From: an uncultured Candidatus Saccharibacteria bacterium
Lineage (GTDB): Bacteria > Patescibacteriota > Saccharimonadia > Saccharimonadales > Saccharimonadaceae
DNA length: 64,000 nt
Direction: 5' to 3'
Assembly (NCBI GenBank): GCA_947304155.1
Contig: CAMZAD010000001.1
Location: 124,001 to 188,000 of the forward strand
Position 1 is the first letter of the stretch. Each line of letters begins with the position of its first letter. Shown piece after piece: positions 1,373 to 43,006 of the stretch. The translations under genes and the position numbers were made by a program. The notes under the pieces are model-generated. The model was not told the origin of the DNA, did no database searches, and was given only the letters and a program-made list of their open reading frames with translations.

Positions 1373-2430
1373 TATTTATTAGCTTCTTCTTTCATGAACT
1401 CACGTTCGTTCTTCTGGAGCTCAAGGATTATATCTTCAATATCACCATCCATTGCGGCGTTGACGTTTGAACGGTTATAGTGGATGCGATGGTCGGTGAT
1501 GCGATCTTGTGGAAAGTTATAAGTGCGGATTTTTTCAGAACGATCGCCAGTACCGATGAGGGATTTTCTAGCTTCAGAAGCATTCTTTTGATCTTCAAGT
1601 TTTTGCTTTTCGGCGAGGCGAGCACGAAGAACGGTCATTGCTTTGATGCGGTTTTGTTGTTGTGAACGTTCATCCTGCATTGCTACAACGATGCCAGTCG
1701 GAAGGTGGGTGATACGGACGGCAGAGTCGGTAGTGTTAACACCTTGGCCGCCATGGCCGCCGGAGCGATAAATATCAATACGTAAATCTTCTGGTTTGAT
1801 TTCAAACTCGGCTTCTTCAGCTTCTGGGAGTACTGCGACAGTTGCAGTTGAGGTATGGATGCGGCCTTGAGACTCGGTAACTGGGACGCGTTGGACGCGG
1901 TGGACGCCGCCTTCAAATTTAAGTTGGCCATATGGTCTTTCACCGGTGATGCGGACGATAACTTCCTTCATACCGCCAGCTTCATTTTCGTTTTGAGAAA
2001 TGAGTTCAGCTTTTAGATTGTGGGTTTCGGCGTAGCGGACATACATACGATAAAGTTCGCCAGCAAAAAGGCTTGCTTCGTCTCCACCAGCACCAGCGCG
2101 GATTTCCATAATAACTGACTTGTCGTCGTTTGGGTCGCGAGGAAGGAGTTTTTCTTCAAGCTCAGCTTCTTTTTCGGCGATTTGCTTCTTTGCTTCTTCG
2201 ATGTCAGATTTGGCGATTTCACCAAGTTCTGGGTCGGAAAGTAATTCTTCAGCTTCTTTGATGTTATTATTTAAGGTTGTAATTGCTTTTCCGAGTTCCA
2301 AGATTTCGTTAAGTTCGGCGAGACGGCGTGATTTTGAGGCAAAATTTGGGTCTGAATATGCATCTGGTTTGCTCAAAAAGTTGTTGATTTCACTAGCTTC
2401 TGTCTGATATTTATTTAAATCGAATTCCAT
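1372..2430 (-). CDS. prfA: Peptide chain release factor 1
   Basis: GGQ motif ([24 protein letters not shown]) and [14 protein letters not shown] (PxT anticodon-like motif of RF1). Confidence 0.95.
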
Positions 2431-2459
2431 ATATGTTATAATTATAACATATTTTTTGA

Positions 2460-2536
2460 GGATCCTTAGCTCAGCTGGCTAGAGCGTACGATTCACATTC
2501 GTAAGGTCACAGGTTCAAGCCCTGTAGGATCCACCA
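2460..2536 (+). tRNA. tRNA-Val (CAC), CCA encoded
   Basis: Cloverleaf: acceptor GGATCCT/AGGATCC, anticodon stem TACGA/TCGTA with loop TTCACAT, T-arm ACAGG-TTCAAGC-CCTGT, ACCA end. Confidence 0.93.
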
Positions 2537-2659
2537 TATAAAAAACGCGGCATTGTTGCTGCGGTTTTTTAGATTTTATATATTGTTTTGTTTGTACTTA
2601 TGCTATAATTAAAACATAAACAATAAGGCTCCCAGTGTTGGAGTAGTGTGGAGGAAAAA

Positions 2660-3241
2660 ATGACAAAACGAAAGATAGCGTTCGTTGTAGCGCTAGCTGT
2701 AATCGGCGTAGCAGCATTGGGCTTGACTGCCGCAGTTTACGCAAAATATATTGCATCACTTCAGGTGACCGGAAACGCTAGTATTGCAGCGTGGAACTTC
2801 GAAGACGATAACGAAAATGCCACCCTTACTTGTGCAATTACAAGTACCGTCGTTTCTGGTACCGTCGCGCCTGGCAAGATTGCTCCGGGCACATCTGGTG
2901 AGTGCACGTTCACCTTATCTAACGCAACGAGCGAAGTAGCGGTAGACTACACCCTAAAAGCAAACGAAACCGGTTCTAGTACGCCGAAGAATCTACAGCT
3001 GAGCTCTGACGGCACAACATGGGGTACGCTAGCGAGCTTTACTAAAAGTGGTACTCTTGCAATTGGTGCCACTAATACTACTGTAACTGTCTACTGGCAG
3101 TGGCCGTACGAAACCGGCACCGTCACTGACGGTATCGCGGCAGGAGATGATGATGATACCGACGATGGTGAAGCCGCAGGCAATATGACTATAATGTTTG
3201 ATATTAGCGGCGTCCAGCACAATCCAAACGTGGCCCTTTAA
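2660..3241 (+). CDS. TasA/camelysin (SipW-dependent, CalY)-like exported protein
   Basis: N-terminal signal/TM followed by AKYIASLQVTGNASIAAWNF; beta-rich body with YWQWPYETG. ATG at 2660 preceded by GGAGG preferred over the GTG at 2648. Confidence 0.65.
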   Translation: MTKRKIAFVVALAVIGVAALGLTAAVYAKYIASLQVTGNASIAAWNFEDDNENATLTCAITSTVVSGTVAPGKIAPGTSGECTFTLSNATSEVAVDYTLKANETGSSTPKNLQLSSDGTTWGTLASFTKSGTLAIGATNTTVTVYWQWPYETGTVTDGIAAGDDDDTDDGEAAGNMTIMFDISGVQHNPNVAL

Positions 3242-3287
3242 GGCAATTTGTGGAGACTTTTAGCCTCCACATGAGTAATGAATCAAT

Positions 3288-4052
3288 TTGATTGCTCGTG
3301 TGGGGGCTAAAAAAGAGTTAATGAAAAGACAAGAAAGAAGAAAAATCAACAGAGTTCTAATAGCGACCGTAGTTCTATTATTAATAGCGGTCGGCATTTT
3401 GTTGTGGCTCCTCTTAAAGCCGAAAAAAATCCCAACCGGAAACGTCGACGTGTTTGATATCCGCATTGGTATTATCTGTAGACACTGGAATGGCTCTAGT
3501 TGTTACGACGACGAAGATGATTTCATCCCGCACGTCACGCCGGGCAGAAGAAAAGCGGACGGCAGCGAGGAGAAAAAGATCAATGGCGACACTGACACCG
3601 ACGTCGAGCGGGATGGTATTGTGTATGTCGATGATAAAGACGGTCGCTACACTTACCAAAAGACGATTAAGATTTTTGAAAACGCAGCTTTCAACTATAC
3701 GAATAAAATCGCCCCTGGGGTATCAAACTCGTATAATTTTAAAGTCCACAACGAAACTGAAAACACGATTCGCTATAACATCGAATTTATCGAAGACTCA
3801 GAATATGCCATCTACATGCGCTATCGTCTCAAGCGTGGCGGAAGCTATGTTGTTGGTAGTGACTCAGAGTGGGTTGGAGCAGACGAACTTGTGTCGGCAT
3901 TCAAAGAACTGCCGATGGATGGTATCGATTCTTATACTCTGGATTGGGAGTGGCCGTACGAAAGTGGCCGGGACGCCCTGGATACCGAGATCGGCGAAAA
4001 CATGACCTCCCTATACAGCTTAGAAATTAAAATAAACTTCGAGGAAGTGTGA
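3288..4052 (+). CDS. Exported/membrane-anchored TasA-like protein, paralogous C-terminus to upstream gene
   Basis: N-terminal TM; C-terminal DWEWPYESG...NMTSLYSLEI parallels YWQWPYETG...NMTIMFDISG of the preceding gene; start may be the internal ATG of MKRQERRKIN. Confidence 0.6.
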   Translation: MIARVGAKKELMKRQERRKINRVLIATVVLLLIAVGILLWLLLKPKKIPTGNVDVFDIRIGIICRHWNGSSCYDDEDDFIPHVTPGRRKADGSEEKKINGDTDTDVERDGIVYVDDKDGRYTYQKTIKIFENAAFNYTNKIAPGVSNSYNFKVHNETENTIRYNIEFIEDSEYAIYMRYRLKRGGSYVVGSDSEWVGADELVSAFKELPMDGIDSYTLDWEWPYESGRDALDTEIGENMTSLYSLEIKINFEEV

Positions 4053-4053
4053 T

Positions 4054-4569
4054 ATGACGGTGTGCAAAAAGACACTAAGGATGCGCCGCAGATATGGTAT
4101 TTTGTTTAGCCTCATCTTCTGCTTATGTTTAGCTGGAATCGCTTCAGCGAAGATGGTAATAAAAACTCCAACTCAAACAGAAGGCACTGTGAGCATAGTT
4201 GGATGGAGCGTCGATGTTACTTCGGCAGACAGCGGCAATATCACACTCGACGCCGGCAGCAGTTCTCAGGCCTATAATCTTACGGTCACGAACAATTCTG
4301 AAGTCGCCAGCTCGTACAGCATCAAAGTATCCAATGTTCCGGCCGGCGTGAAAATTGGTCTAGATATCACCTCTACCAGTGACATGGTAACGCCGACAGG
4401 GGGTGAAGCTACGTTTACAAATACCGGCGGAGATTTAGGTTTTGAAGCGCCAAACAACACCAGGTCACACGTTTTAACCTTAGCGGCTGAAGCAACAGCA
4501 AACGTCACGCAAAGTAGTGTTGATATGGCGATCGAGGTATTGTTTGAGCAGAAGGATCCACGACCATGA
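4054..4569 (+). CDS. Exported protein, TasA-like small subunit (signal peptide + beta-rich domain)
   Basis: Signal peptide ending GIASAK, then TQTEGTVSIVGWSV; ATGA overlap with next gene. Confidence 0.55.
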   Translation: MTVCKKTLRMRRRYGILFSLIFCLCLAGIASAKMVIKTPTQTEGTVSIVGWSVDVTSADSGNITLDAGSSSQAYNLTVTNNSEVASSYSIKVSNVPAGVKIGLDITSTSDMVTPTGGEATFTNTGGDLGFEAPNNTRSHVLTLAAEATANVTQSSVDMAIEVLFEQKDPRP

Positions 4570-6551
4570 TGGGTAAGTGGCGCTATCTCGTAGCTGGAAT
4601 CTTAGTGATAACGCTAGGCTTTTTGTTTATTGATAACGCCGAAGCGAAGTATGTAGATAGCAAGTCGCTAACAATCTCAATCAATATTGAAAAGCATTAC
4701 GAAGTCGAATTTGATGCCAATGGCGGCACTGGCTCAATGGCGAACCAACAATTTACATCAGGTGTCCCACAAGCACTAACAACAAACACATATACCTATA
4801 CGGGGCATTACTTTGGCGGCTGGAATACTAGTGCAAACGGTAGCGGCACATCTTATGCGGACGAAGAATTGATTTCTGCAGATCTCACAAATGTTGGTGG
4901 TAGTGTTGTTACGCTCTACGCTCAATGGACAGAAGATGCCATGCACACTGTATTCAGGATTGACGGCACCTGTGTATTCCATGGCTACGACATTCAGCAG
5001 GGTACTGGCGATGGTTATATCACCGGCACCAATTGTGTAGCGGGCGGTACTGACTGGGCGGATGGCACGCACAAATATATCGATACCGGCTACAAACTTT
5101 ACGACTCTACGAATTATGAAAAGGATTTTGAAGTTGGGTTCACTATTACAGCCTACGACTCAGACCACCAGTATAAAGGAACGGATGCTTCCTCTCAAGT
5201 AACCTTCTTTAGTTCTAAATTAGAAAATGAAAGCAGACACTGGCCTGGTATAGTAGTTCGTAAGAACGGAAATAAAATCGAAATCACAGAAACCATCACT
5301 AAGCCAAATGGTACTAGCGAAAAGAAAGCTGCCAGCGTCGCGAACACGACGCCAGTAAAGGTCATAGTCACGAGAGTAGACGGCATAATCTACTATTCGA
5401 CCGATGGCGGAGCGTTTACTTTGTTGCAGGACATCAATGGTACTTCAGACTATTTCGACGTAAACGCTTGGTTTGGTGCGGCCGCCAAAGACGACAACAC
5501 GCCGATGCGCTATATTGATGCCACTATGACGGATATTTACATCAAAGTCGGCGACACTGGCGCAAATAAACATACCGTCAGCTTTGACGCCAGAGGCGTC
5601 GTTTCGGATCCGTCAAATGTTACAGTTATTAGCTCTAGCAAGCTTGGCAATACAATGCCAAGTATGCCGAACCACGTAGATACGCAAGATGGTCGTTTGT
5701 ACTTCATTGGCTGGTATAGTGGTGTCGATGGCACGGGCGAGAAATATGATGAAAACACCATAATTAACCGCGATATCACACTTTATGCCTATTGGAATGA
5801 TGAACTAATTCTGTGTAGTGTTGGTGATGAGACGCATGGCGACCTGCAGGATTGTATCGATGAAGCTAACACGGGAGACACAATCACTCTACTTGAAAAT
5901 ACTAGTGGACATGACATACTCGTGGATAGCAGCAAAGACATCACGCTTGATTTGAACGGCCATACACTCAGTAACGACGTCACAACAAGTAATCCTGTCA
6001 TAATAAACCGCGGCAAGTTAACAGTGATAAACGGTACAGTTTCATCTGCCGCCAACGCCGGTGTGTTTAACAACGAAGGTGTCGGCGAGCTCACAATCGG
6101 AAATGGTGCACGCATCATAGCGACTGGCGCAAGGCAAGGTATTTACAATGACAATGCCAAACTAGTGATTAATGATGGTGCATATATCAGCGCAACGGCC
6201 AGCGCTCGTGCTACGGTGCAAAACCACGGTAACGGCCAATTGATAATCACGGGCGGCACGATTATCTCAACTCGTCAAGAAGCGGTCAAAGTTGAAGGCG
6301 GTACGGCGATAATCGGCGTCGAGGATGGTGTAGCAGATAGAACTGCCCCAATCCTCCAAGGTGCGACCTACGGCCTCAATACCAGTGTCAATGTCTCGAT
6401 GTTTGATGGTACATTAAGAGGTGGCACGGGCGCAGTCAACAACGCCAGCCTTATCACCGCAACCGAATCCGGCGCCACATCGGTCGGTATCGACTCGGTA
6501 GTCACCGAAGTAATCGACGGCGTAACCTATAAGATAATTTATTATCAATAG
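4566..6551 (+). CDS. Multidomain surface adhesin-like protein: Listeria-Bacteroides (InlB B-type) repeats, lectin-like domain, beta-helix-like C-terminus
   Basis: EVEFDANGGTGSM...GHYFGGWNTSANGSGT...VTLYAQW and HTVSFDARG...YFIGWYSGVDGTGEKYDENTIINRDITLYAYW (Flg_new-type repeats); C-terminal ITLDLNGHTLSN...LTVINGTVSS...LTIGNGARI...LVINDGAYI...LIITGGTI ladder. Confidence 0.75.
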   Translation: MMGKWRYLVAGILVITLGFLFIDNAEAKYVDSKSLTISINIEKHYEVEFDANGGTGSMANQQFTSGVPQALTTNTYTYTGHYFGGWNTSANGSGTSYADEELISADLTNVGGSVVTLYAQWTEDAMHTVFRIDGTCVFHGYDIQQGTGDGYITGTNCVAGGTDWADGTHKYIDTGYKLYDSTNYEKDFEVGFTITAYDSDHQYKGTDASSQVTFFSSKLENESRHWPGIVVRKNGNKIEITETITKPNGTSEKKAASVANTTPVKVIVTRVDGIIYYSTDGGAFTLLQDINGTSDYFDVNAWFGAAAKDDNTPMRYIDATMTDIYIKVGDTGANKHTVSFDARGVVSDPSNVTVISSSKLGNTMPSMPNHVDTQDGRLYFIGWYSGVDGTGEKYDENTIINRDITLYAYWNDELILCSVGDETHGDLQDCIDEANTGDTITLLENTSGHDILVDSSKDITLDLNGHTLSNDVTTSNPVIINRGKLTVINGTVSSAANAGVFNNEGVGELTIGNGARIIATGARQGIYNDNAKLVINDGAYISATASARATVQNHGNGQLIITGGTIISTRQEAVKVEGGTAIIGVEDGVADRTAPILQGATYGLNTSVNVSMFDGTLRGGTGAVNNASLITATESGATSVGIDSVVTEVIDGVTYKIIYYQ

Positions 6552-6611
6552 TTATTGACCAAGTATTTACACTATAAAGCTTTGCTTTCCCGCTTAATTC
6601 CGTTAGTGATC

Positions 6612-6644
6612 AAGGGTCCTGAATTAATTTTCAGGGCCCTTTTT
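6612..6644 (+). terminator. Rho-independent terminator after surface-protein operon
   Basis: AAGGGTCCTGAA-ttaat-TTTCAGGGCCCTT followed by T-run. Confidence 0.85.
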
Positions 6645-6681
6645 CATGCCTAATTTGCATAAGCATAATAGATGTGTTATT

Positions 6682-7743
6682 ATGATGAAAACGATGCAAA
6701 AACAAAAAACAAAACCAAAAAGTCACATGTTTTATCGAATGCTGTTTAATTCTGTATTTTTTGTGGCGCTAATTTTTGGTACCTTTTTCTTTGTTTTTAA
6801 AGACCAAAATGTTGATGAAATTATTTCCCTGGCGCTGAGCACGAACACTGGTTTTGTGGCGCTTGGTCTTCTTTGCATGATGGCTTATTTCTTCTTTGAA
6901 TCATGGAATGTTAGGACTCTACTTAAAAACCTTGGCGAGAAGGTAGGGTTCTTTAAATCTCTTAAATTTACAATGATTGGCTTCTTTTTCTGTTCGATCA
7001 CCCCTGGTGCGAGTGGTGGCCAGCCACTTGAAGTGTATTACATGAATAAAGACGGTGTCTCAACTATGAACGCTACAATTACGATTTTGATTCAGGTGTT
7101 TGGCGTGCAAGTAGCTGTAGTTGGCTTTGGTGTTTTAAGTGGTATTCTCTGCCATGATATCCTAGTTGGGCCAATTCTTTGGCTTTACATCATCGGGCTA
7201 ATCATCAACGCCTTTGCCCTTTTGATGCTTTTCTTCTTCATTATCAGCCCAAACTTTTTCGGTGGCTTGCTAATTAGGTTAACGAGATTCTTACGCCTGT
7301 TTATGCCTGAGAAGAGAGTCGCAAAACTTGAAGCAAAGGCTACTAGGTCAATTAAAAAATACAGCAGTAGCTCGGAATACATTAAGTCGCATCGCAATGT
7401 CTTTTTCTGGGCGGTTTCAAAGTCTGTGGCGCAAATGGCGTGCTATTTTATGGTTCCGTTCTTTATCTACCTTGCCTTTGGCTTATCTGGAACTAATATC
7501 TTAACAATCTTCATGGTTCAAGCAATTCTCTTTGTCTCGACTTCCGGCTTGCCACTTCCTGGCGCAATTGGCGCAAGTGAGTCGGTCTTCCTTGGTCTTT
7601 ACGCAAAGATTTTTGGCGACAATTTGTTAAGTTCCGCAATGTTAATTAATCGCGGAGTTAGCTTCTACGGCTTCGTATTAATTAGTATGCTGTTTGTATT
7701 TGTAAACTTATTCTTAATATCAAGAAGTAAACCAAAAAACTAG
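6682..7743 (+). CDS. Flippase-like / lysylphosphatidylglycerol synthase TM-region (UPF0104) family membrane protein
   Basis: Polytopic; FCSITPGASGGQPLEVYYMNKDGVS and LPLPGAIGASESVFLGLY typical of the family; start moved downstream of the terminator. Confidence 0.8.
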   Translation: MMKTMQKQKTKPKSHMFYRMLFNSVFFVALIFGTFFFVFKDQNVDEIISLALSTNTGFVALGLLCMMAYFFFESWNVRTLLKNLGEKVGFFKSLKFTMIGFFFCSITPGASGGQPLEVYYMNKDGVSTMNATITILIQVFGVQVAVVGFGVLSGILCHDILVGPILWLYIIGLIINAFALLMLFFFIISPNFFGGLLIRLTRFLRLFMPEKRVAKLEAKATRSIKKYSSSSEYIKSHRNVFFWAVSKSVAQMACYFMVPFFIYLAFGLSGTNILTIFMVQAILFVSTSGLPLPGAIGASESVFLGLYAKIFGDNLLSSAMLINRGVSFYGFVLISMLFVFVNLFLISRSKPKN

Positions 7744-9094: not shown

Positions 9095-9877
9095 TTAGAT
9101 GTTAAATATTGGCTTACTAAACCATATTACGATAATAGTAATTAACGAAGCTGAAAAAATGATAGGAATTATAATTTCTTGCCAGTTTACTTTATTTTCA
9201 TTTTTGGTAATTGAGCGGTAAATGAATCCGAAAACGTAAGATAAAATTACGAGGATAATTGAGAGCTGTGGAATGACGATGCCGGTTCCGGCAAAAGAGT
9301 AAACAATTAGCCAGGCATGGCAGAGCCAGGCGACTTCAGCGGTAACAAGGCCAGCGAGTAACATGACGAGTTCGTAGTTATGGCTATTGCCTTGAACGAG
9401 AACGTGGCGGGCAGCGCCATATCCGATGATAAATGAGCCGACAAGTAGAACGGCAGAATCGAGTGTCGCAGTGAGAAGAACCAGTGCTGTGGTGCCGAAG
9501 AAGACGGCGCTAAGTGCCTGCAAATTAGTTGCAAGTTCATTTGATTTTGGCTTCAAAACTACTAGCCATAAGGTATAAAGAATCGATAAGATGACGTGCA
9601 TTGGCATAAACTTGGTGCCAGTACAATAAGCGATTAGGACAAATGATGCCCCAACAATAATATCAACGAGGTTGGATTTTAGATTTAAGAACCAATAACG
9701 TGGACGAACGGCAAACATGCGCCATTTCGAAAGAAGCACGAGGAGTAAACCTGGCAATGGATTTCCGGTAATGAAAGTAATGTAGATTGAACCGACCGCA
9801 AGAATGATGTTCAAAATGACATGAAGAAATGAGCTTAGGGTGTTGCGGCTTTTTCTAATAAATACGAAGTCTGCCAT
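9095..9877 (-). CDS. Polytopic membrane protein of unknown function
   Basis: Hydrophobic ORF; start at MADFVF overlaps lepB stop (TAATG), preferred over upstream ORF start at 9940. Confidence 0.6.
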   Translation of the reverse strand: MADFVFIRKSRNTLSSFLHVILNIILAVGSIYITFITGNPLPGLLLVLLSKWRMFAVRPRYWFLNLKSNLVDIIVGASFVLIAYCTGTKFMPMHVILSILYTLWLVVLKPKSNELATNLQALSAVFFGTTALVLLTATLDSAVLLVGSFIIGYGAARHVLVQGNSHNYELVMLLAGLVTAEVAWLCHAWLIVYSFAGTGIVIPQLSIILVILSYVFGFIYRSITKNENKVNWQEIIIPIIFSASLITIIVIWFSKPIFNI

Positions 9878-10521
9878 TAGAATGTCCTCATTTGTGAGAA
9901 TGGGAATAAGCGCAAGATGACTGGGCCGATGATGCGGCAATATGGCACAGTGCCAAGGCCATAGCGGGAGTCAAATGAGTGGGTGCCTTCGCGGTTGTCG
10001 CCAGCAACGAAAATTTCGCCTTCTGGAACAATCATGTCGACTTCACCACTAGTGTTGGCTTTCGGGCCATCAGTGTCGGATTTTCGGGTTTCATCATCAG
10101 GGTGGAATCCATCTGGATACTCGTCGTTATAAACGGTCAAGACGCCATCCTTTACAACTACGCGTTCACCTGGGAAAGCAATGACGCGTTTAATGATGTA
10201 TTGATCGGTCAAAGCAGCGTCAGCATTACAAGTCAAAGGTCCAGTAGCATCGCCGTTAACGAAGACAATAACTTGTCCGCGTTCAGGGACATATTCTTTC
10301 CCTTGAAGGTGAGCGATTGAAACTGGAATACGGTTCACGATTACGCGGTCATTGCCATGTAAAGTATTCTCCATTGAGACACCAATCACGTTATATGAGC
10401 GATAGATGAAGCTATTGATGATAATTGTGCCGAGCACAATAAAAACCACAAAAACTGCTAGGCTGCAAATATCGGCTGCAACTGGGTGGCGCTGGAAAAA
10501 AGTTAGTTTCGCGGTTTCCAT
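9877..10521 (-). CDS. lepB: Signal peptidase I (Ser-Lys type)
   Basis: GVSMENTL (catalytic Ser), YIIKRVIAFPGERV (catalytic Lys), VAGDNREGTHSFDSRYGLGTV. Confidence 0.93.
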   Translation of the reverse strand: METAKLTFFQRHPVAADICSLAVFVVFIVLGTIIINSFIYRSYNVIGVSMENTLHGNDRVIVNRIPVSIAHLQGKEYVPERGQVIVFVNGDATGPLTCNADAALTDQYIIKRVIAFPGERVVVKDGVLTVYNDEYPDGFHPDDETRKSDTDGPKANTSGEVDMIVPEGEIFVAGDNREGTHSFDSRYGLGTVPYCRIIGPVILRLFPFSQMRTF

Positions 10522-32459: not shown

Positions 32460-32530
32460 ATTAAGTCCTTGTTTATGGTTTAATTATAACATCTTTAGGT
32501 CAATCTATTTTAAAGCTTTAGTGTTTTACA

Positions 32531-32596: not shown

Positions 32597-33226
32597 ATGA
32601 AAGCTAAAATTTTTGCTATTTTTGCAACAATTTTTCTCGCTAGCAGCGCTGTAAACACAGCTTATCAAAACTGGGAGTGGGGCCATAAATGTGACGGCAT
32701 TGAAATTACTACCCATTGTACTGGCGATGATGGTGAAAGATATAATAAATATATCTTTCATGAAGCACTAGCGGAAGATAGGACTATTGTTGTTCATCAT
32801 GATGCGGTGGCTGAGAAAAGTCATATCGTGCATCATCCAGCAACGCCAGCAAAAACTCATACCGTGTATCATCCAGATGAAATTGGAGTTCGTGTAATCC
32901 GTCGATGCATTCGCACTACAATTAGCTATAAAAATGGTACTTGTGCAAGATCACAATGTCGTGATGGTGAATATTCTGGCTCATCTGGTCGCGGAACTTG
33001 TAGTTATCATGGCGGTGTTTTGCGTAGCGGAGGACCATGGTATGAATACATTACCGAAACATACGTTAAGAAAAAGGCTTGGATCGAAACAGTAGTTGAC
33101 GTTCCAGCAAAAAAGGCTTGGGATGAAAAAGTAATAGACATCCAAGCAAAGGCTGCATGGGATGAGACGGTTATTCTAGAAAAAGCTCACGCGGCTTACT
33201 ATGAAAAAGAGTTGCTAAAACCTTAA
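32597..33226 (+). CDS. Secreted repeat protein with DUF3761-like Cys/His core
   Basis: Signal peptide; HHxA-type repeats; CRDGEYSGSSGRGTCSYHGGV; four AW(D/I)E-type C-terminal repeats. Confidence 0.7.
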   Translation: MKAKIFAIFATIFLASSAVNTAYQNWEWGHKCDGIEITTHCTGDDGERYNKYIFHEALAEDRTIVVHHDAVAEKSHIVHHPATPAKTHTVYHPDEIGVRVIRRCIRTTISYKNGTCARSQCRDGEYSGSSGRGTCSYHGGVLRSGGPWYEYITETYVKKKAWIETVVDVPAKKAWDEKVIDIQAKAAWDETVILEKAHAAYYEKELLKP

Positions 33227-42493: not shown

Positions 42494-43006
42494 CTAATCA
42501 TCCTCCTCTGCGGTAACAATGAAACGATGTGTGTAATCTTGTTCACCGAGAGGTTCTCCATAGCAAGTCATCAAAACGATTGTATTTTTCTCGGTTTCGC
42601 TGACTACTTCTTCCATGTTGACGGCGGTTTTTTCGACGATTTCAATTCTGGTAATTGTGTAATCTTTGCTATCAAATGTGATGCGATCATCCATCTCAAC
42701 ATCTTTTAAGGTATTAAAGATTGAGGTGCTGTGACCAAGTAAAACGGTTTTATGGACAGCTGGGTAATATGCACCAGCTTCGAGATCCGGTGGAACCAAT
42801 TTGCTTCCTTCACGCTCAATATTCTTGACGCGTGCAATCATGCCGATACTTGGAATGAAGAGGCGTTCTTCACTCATAGCGTCAGCTTCTTTTGGCTTGA
42901 AGAAATAAAATACTGTGCCAAAAATTACAAAAAAATACATGATGCCGAAAATCCAACTAAATTTTGGACGTGGCAATTTAAACTTATTAACTCCATCCCT
43001 ACGCAT
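42494..43006 (-). CDS. Sortase family protein
   Basis: LLGHSTSIFNTLKDVEMDDRI (His), IVLMTCYGEPLG (Cys), THRFIVTAE (Arg). Confidence 0.85.
   Translation of the reverse strand: MRRDGVNKFKLPRPKFSWIFGIMYFFVIFGTVFYFFKPKEADAMSEERLFIPSIGMIARVKNIEREGSKLVPPDLEAGAYYPAVHKTVLLGHSTSIFNTLKDVEMDDRITFDSKDYTITRIEIVEKTAVNMEEVVSETEKNTIVLMTCYGEPLGEQDYTHRFIVTAEEDD

Follow-up and report, generated by a model that had tools for sequence, protein, structure and literature searches.

Saccharibacteria are very small, parasitic or symbiotic bacteria, and accounts of how they attach to other bacteria rest so far on type IV pili. A stretch of 64,000 nucleotides from an uncultured Candidatus Saccharibacteria bacterium (contig CAMZAD010000001.1, positions 124,001 to 188,000, designated here the window) contains an operon that raises the question of whether a surface filament of another type is encoded by these bacteria. 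The operon comprises four consecutive genes of the plus strand, located at positions 2660-3241 (gene 1, 193 residues), 3321-4052 (gene 2, 243 residues; an alternative upstream TTG start is possible at 3288), 4054-4569 (gene 3, 171 residues), and 4566-6551 (gene 4, 661 residues). Re-reading of the open reading frames agreed with the coordinates of an initial annotation, which had proposed a fibre of the SipW-dependent TasA/camelysin type. Our preferred reading is that of a TasA-like fibre operon in a variant without SipW, with exchange of the operon between Bacillota and Saccharibacteria. We consider it on balance probable that its products form a secreted surface structure of several subunits, most likely a thin filament that works in the manner of TasA/SipW systems. 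As a system it is real and conserved, and neither of the libraries used, Pfam and NCBIfam, gives it a name.

The best evidence for a TasA/SipW-like system, independent of the motifs considered in the initial annotation, is its linkage to genes encoding SipW-type signal peptidases. Two genomes of the window's own genus displayed the orders SipW - gene 1 - gene 2 - SipW - gene 3 - gene 4 (G601, locus L044) and gene 1 - gene 2 - SipW - gene 3 - gene 4 (G561, locus L045), and the peptidases matched NF046067 (best 1e-30) and, over its cut-off, TIGR02228. The latter gene order was also present on a contig binned as rumen Erysipelotrichaceae (L073). A SipW-type gene, recognized with a local model, adjoined homologues of gene 1 or 2 in 11 of the 13 Bacillota regions fetched. 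The presence of SipW inside divergent homologous operons is the principal argument that the system works like TasA. The cleavage site of TasA is followed by an aromatic residue at position P2' (PMC10269814). The junctions of the SipW-linked copies match this rule, since the sequence [AS]-[KRI]-[YF] was identified in 36 of 44 cases by script and in 43 of 44 by eye.

Three of the four window proteins harbor the AK(Y/M) motif reported by the initial annotation directly after a hydrophobic N-terminal segment: VYA-KY in gene 1, ASA-KM in gene 3, which has a short paralogous body, and AEA-KY in gene 4. Gene 2, the most conserved protein of the four, departs from the layout proposed for the set, as it contains a membrane anchor instead, i.e. 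an N-terminal transmembrane segment devoid of an Ala-x-Ala site, followed by a body with the motifs IAPG and W-x-WPYE. Profile-profile comparisons with hhalign connected gene 1 to gene 2 (E 1.2e-10) and to gene 3 (E 1.1e-11), genes 2 and 3 being connected via gene 1. The gene 1 profile recovered all three small-protein genes in one Bacillota genome. On these profile comparisons, genes 1, 2, and 3 are one paralogous family, which is the part of the proposal of small fibre subunits that gained support. A weak third match in the window's genome was a DUF11-type wall protein, which was discarded as a family member. Elsewhere in the genome (L135) is a gene for a wall protein of the DUF11 type that ends in PHTG.

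Scanning genes 1 to 3 against Pfam and NCBIfam returned only chance-level matches, and no model in these libraries names the small proteins; a match to the Ig-like FixG_C model (E 0.004-0.015) was taken only as a hint of a β-sandwich. The AlphaFold model of gene 1, of moderate quality (pLDDT 67.6), contains a helix, disordered residues 21-50, and a β-rich body, the unstructured segment preceding the body as a free donor strand would. Foldseek detected no match to this model at E<=0.001, with only weak resemblances to β-sandwiches. Gene 1 was the fastest-diverging gene of the operon in two locus pairs (49-58% identity versus 83-96% for genes 3 and 4), as expected of an exposed main subunit. We propose the product of gene 1 as the major subunit, that of gene 3 as a minor or adaptor subunit, and that of gene 2 as a base or assembly subunit anchored in the membrane.

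Genes 1 and 2 are separated by a conserved stem-loop (3259-3311, plus strand) with a stem of about 23 bp and a folding energy of -37 kcal/mol for positions 3239-3323 (z -7.9). The structure, which the initial annotation did not list, was found in 15 of the 15 SipW-less loci examined. In the alignment, 95.4% of cells were paired (38.6-49.3% when the alignment was slid), and covariation was revealed by 24 double-change cells versus 9.7 in shuffles. An Rfam search with the hairpin gave no match. Since it is not followed by a T-run, the stem-loop is not a terminator; it is most simply read as an element that stabilises the 3' end of the gene 1 transcript or directs its processing. A stable and abundant gene 1 message is expected for a major subunit.

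The 661-residue product of gene 4, which the initial annotation regarded as a tip or associated adhesin, was modeled by AlphaFold with a pLDDT of 84.5. It contains, in order on the plus strand, a first InlB-type B-repeat (4698-4937, residues 45-124; PF09479, 8e-16), a ConA/LamG-like jelly-roll with approximate boundaries (4941-5555, about residues 126-330) detected with AlphaFold and Foldseek, a second InlB-type B-repeat (5568-5798, residues 335-411) detected by hmmsearch against the PDB (internalin B, 2y5p, E 6.3e-5), and a parallel β-helix (5808-6545, about residues 415-660) formed in the model by short regular strands with pLDDT values mostly of 85-95. The B-repeats, the ConA-like fold, and the β-helix bear out the adhesin-like character: as modeled, gene 4 is a multidomain adhesin-like protein with a lectin-like domain. 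A location at the tip, or in association with the filament, is plausible.

Conservation of the operon was examined in Saccharibacteria. A related-locus search with the gene 1 protein alone as query found none, and a single-protein search with gene 1 was positive in 5 of the 151 genomes of the family. The gene 2 profile matched 15 of the 45 genomes of one related genus and 3 of 381 genomes in a sample of the phylum. Among 100 genomes of the window's own genus, the profile matched the window's genome and two strongly diverged copies; a further match, in G632, proved to be a protein of the LytR type and was removed as false. The four-gene order recurs, together with the ATGA overlap between genes 3 and 4, in relatives with 30-78% protein identity, indicating that the arrangement is more than chance; the 15 genomes of the related genus keep both. 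One of the related loci (L071) starts within the operon. Values of dN/dS of about 0.1-0.23, where dS was computable, indicate purifying selection on the operon genes. Several carriers of the related genus originate from the rumen or omasum of sheep or goats. The operon is patchy in Saccharibacteria, and its chromosomal site differs between the window, L007, and L008-L010. In the three latter loci, it lies between rplU and a gene for an RseP-type protease, 3' of a DUF11 gene whose product has LPNTG or LPKTG as its anchor. In L066 (5308-5802; same genome as L054), gene 1 looks truncated or frame-shifted, and genes 2 to 4 are intact.

The system was present in Saccharibacteria, as the initial annotation had it, but was not specific to them, since it was at least as common in one order of Bacillota. 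In the order to which L073 belongs, the gene 2 profile matched 35 of 241 genomes, 12 of them with E <1e-30. The L073 contig also encodes a SpoIIGA-like protein, and gene 2 displayed about 45-47% identity to its L073 homologue. Genes 1-2-3-4 were found in this order with profile matches, which defines one operon family in Bacillota and Saccharibacteria. In a tree of gene 2, Saccharibacteria appeared in three places among Bacillota, and a single Saccharibacteria clade was rejected (p-AU 0.001), although the long branches of G601 and G561 advise caution. The window was located inside the clade of the related genus (99/95), the sister of which was the Bacillota pair L073/L121. Transfer of the operon between phyla, followed by transfer among genera of Saccharibacteria, is the most likely history. 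In Bacillota, four copies of the operon (L110, L111, L114, and L120) lie next to a gene for a phage integrase or a serine resolvase, suggesting that the setting is mobile.

Based on these observations, we infer the following mechanism. The subunits would be exported by Sec and cleaved at A-K(Y/M). As happens in TasA, the N-terminal segment released in this way (KYIASLQVTGNASIAAW in gene 1) would then provide the donor strand for the subunit that follows. Gene 1 would thereby polymerise as the major subunit, with gene 3 as a minor or adaptor subunit, and the membrane-anchored paralogue encoded by gene 2 would base or nucleate assembly. The large lectin-like protein encoded by gene 4 would be located at the tip or along the filament, where it may attach to host cells. 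The hairpin after gene 1 would stabilise the gene 1 message and provide the main subunit in excess. The window's copy would have lost the SipW gene, which is located between genes 2 and 3 in relatives, and its products would probably be processed by the housekeeping peptidase LepB.

Several observations weigh against this interpretation. PF12389 (TasA/camelysin) had no match in the window's genome, comparison of gene 1 with TasA (8AUR) by hhalign gave a probability of 0.6%, a profile search of the PDB provided no significant TasA-type match, and TasA was not among the 50 Foldseek matches listed for the moderate model of gene 1. No SipW gene was found in the operon region (2400-6900), and TIGR02228 had no match genome-wide at E<=1. 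Despite this, Tyr is retained at P2' in the junctions of genes 1 and 4. Finally, Saccharibacteria already bind their hosts by type IV pili (PMC12206443).

The first alternative is that the operon is a true member of the TasA/camelysin family, with a homologous jelly-roll too diverged to be retrieved by sequence searches. The SipW linkage and the TasA-type junction fit this proposal, and the only stretch of gene 1 aligned by hhalign to TasA, KIAPGTSGECTFTLSN versus NLKPGDKLTKDFQFENNG, occupies an equivalent place. The NCBI model of cognate SipW signals (TIGR04088), which had no match in the window protein, weakly matched 2 of 24 relatives, one of which came near the cut-off (14.6 versus 19 bits). 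Against this stand the hhalign probability and the missing PF12389 and Foldseek matches reported above, and the identification of gene 1 as TasA by sequence profile was not upheld. Common descent with TasA is thus possible but doubtful.

The second alternative is that the four proteins do not polymerise but coat the cell as separate surface proteins, the Ig-like bodies and gene 4 being retained by uncleaved N-terminal anchors. The SipW-dependent type had been assigned by the initial annotation; this assignment is supported by the divergent copies, which carry SipW-type peptidases, and gained no support for the window's copy, as SipW was found in neither the operon nor the genome (completeness of 97.5%). 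The only S26 peptidase found genome-wide was LepB, a P-type signal peptidase I (9877-10521, minus strand; TIGR02227, 2.5e-29, and PF10502), which is for this reason the likely processing enzyme. None of 143 verified LepB substrates has an aromatic residue at P2', TasA is poorly cleaved by LepB, and a P2' Tyr is handled poorly by E. coli LepB (PMC10269814). The Tyr of genes 1 and 4 and the absence of SipW are accordingly in favor of uncleaved anchors, as is the transmembrane segment of gene 2, which has no cleavage site. In contrast, genes 3 and 4 have good Ala-x-Ala sites (ASA and AEA/AQA) and gene 1 has Val-x-Ala, the operons of relatives bring their own signal peptidase, pointing to cleavage, and three paralogous subunits per operon suggest assembly. 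We therefore regard non-polymerising anchors as rather unlikely.

For the preferred SipW-less fibre, the junctions of the SipW-less loci fit a partial re-tuning to LepB, as far as can be judged from their sequences: genes 1 and 4 keep Tyr at P2', gene 3 has Met in 15 of 15 loci, and gene 4 has mostly an Ala-x-Ala site (AEA/AQA). Re-tuning is limited to inference by the presence of an unlinked SipW-type peptidase in 14 of the 15 operon carriers of the related genus; G011, a genome of this genus rated 100% complete, had no TIGR02228 match over the cut-off (best E 0.05). The notion that SipW presence tracks the operon was refuted, since 38 of the 45 genomes of the related genus encode a peptidase that scores above the cut-off for the SipW type, whether or not they carry the operon. 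Two loci of this genus (L011 and L013) contain a second kind of SipW-linked pair, comprising a multi-transmembrane protein of 382-383 residues with a SipW-type domain and an adjoining exported protein of 187 residues with a FAAYSQ junction.

The third alternative, a complex for carbohydrate capture or nutrient scavenging in which gene 4 binds polysaccharide and the small proteins act as spacers, is raised by the Foldseek neighbours of the ConA-like domain, which included CBM40, the mannose-binding protein YwfG, alginate lyase, and the ConA-like half of the clostridial neurotoxin binding domain, and by the rumen or omasum origin of several relatives. A toxin was discarded, since the neurotoxin receptor-binding matches reflect only the ConA-like jelly-roll fold, with about 10% identity and no catalytic part. 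Capture is improbable, however, as the operon contains neither enzymes nor transporters and the tip-candidate proteins of related operons have quite different domains (FISUMP, OmpL47-like, and ALK/LTK glycine-rich). A variant type IV pilus or a sortase-built pilus, which the pili of Saccharibacteria (PMC12206443) and the sortase-like gene at 42494-43006 could evoke, is very improbable in view of the SipW linkage in relatives, of the absence of a prepilin peptidase motif before the hydrophobic segment (cleavage-like sites come after it, and the gene 1 body is β-rich), and of the absence of an LPxTG-type sorting signal at the C-termini of the four proteins.

The transcription signals reported by the initial annotation were recovered. 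The extended -10 element TGCTATAAT (2601-2609, plus strand), read directly from the sequence, has counterparts at the same position 5' of gene 1 in most relatives. An intrinsic terminator, consisting of a hairpin followed by TTTTT (6612-6644, plus strand; -24.4 kcal/mol, z -6.1), follows gene 4 and was not among the sites listed by a simple terminator scan. The ATGA overlap of genes 3 and 4 was also confirmed. The 5' leader hairpin folded no better than shuffled sequences. The operon is preceded by tRNA-Val (2460-2536), which the initial annotation did not list either, the next gene after it is of the lysylphosphatidylglycerol-synthase-transmembrane type, and its GC content is unremarkable. 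Palindromic extended -10 promoters (TTATGnTATAAT...CATAA) occur in the window at 2431-2452, 5' of tRNA-Val, at 2598-2623, and on the minus strand at 32473, 43006, and 43769, above the count in shuffles. The palindrome around the -10 is not specific to the operon, and such promoters may be common to this genome in general. Elsewhere in the window, the sortase-like gene (42494-43006) has no obvious adjoining substrate, and 32597-33226 encodes a secreted protein of 209 residues with an odd repeat of AxxAxHTVxHPA and mirrored KKAWxExV units.

If the preferred reading is correct, Saccharibacteria would have a second filament system, spread by lateral exchange and bearing a lectin-like tip that varies, as a direct candidate for host recognition. 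SipW/TasA-like fibre systems would then reach beyond Bacillus into uncultured gut Bacillota and into the Candidate Phyla Radiation, and the window's copy would serve as a natural experiment on how a substrate of the SipW type can do without SipW. The complete scenario, in which a fibre family is traded between rumen Bacillota and Saccharibacteria and one lineage, freed from SipW and re-tuned to LepB, holds hosts alongside type IV pili, is a long shot. The open-access literature (subscription papers and preprints not covered) contained no description of TasA or SipW in Saccharibacteria or Patescibacteria, and no description of the SipW-linked operons of rumen Bacillota (L073, L110-L122) was found in the literature searched.

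The closest relatives of the window's operon are these rumen Bacillota operons, which contain clear homologues of the same families in the order 1-2-3-4 but differ by one or two SipW genes, extra subunits in some cases, and other gene 4 domains. The tapA-sipW-tasA operon of Bacillus subtilis, in which TasA forms a fibre by donor-strand exchange (PMC9674648), similarly encodes exported small β proteins, with a SipW-type peptidase in the related copies' operons, an aromatic P2' residue after the cleavage site, and an unstructured mature N-terminus in the monomer model of gene 1. The window's operon differs from it in having no TasA sequence match, SipW, or TapA, in belonging to another phylum, and in encoding three paralogous subunits and a large modular protein. 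The sipW-tasA-calY (camelysin) cluster and CapP system of Bacillus cereus (PMC4292775; PMC13082335) also have SipW together with at least two paralogous fibre subunits and work independently of sortase. The operon described here has no PF12389 match, includes an additional lectin-like tip candidate, and showed no CapP-like gene, although no search aimed at one was made. The type IV pili of Saccharibacteria (PMC12206443) are thin filaments on the cell surface as well, with a proposed role in episymbiosis, but they have unrelated subunits and export and are near-universal in the phylum, in contrast to the patchy operon.

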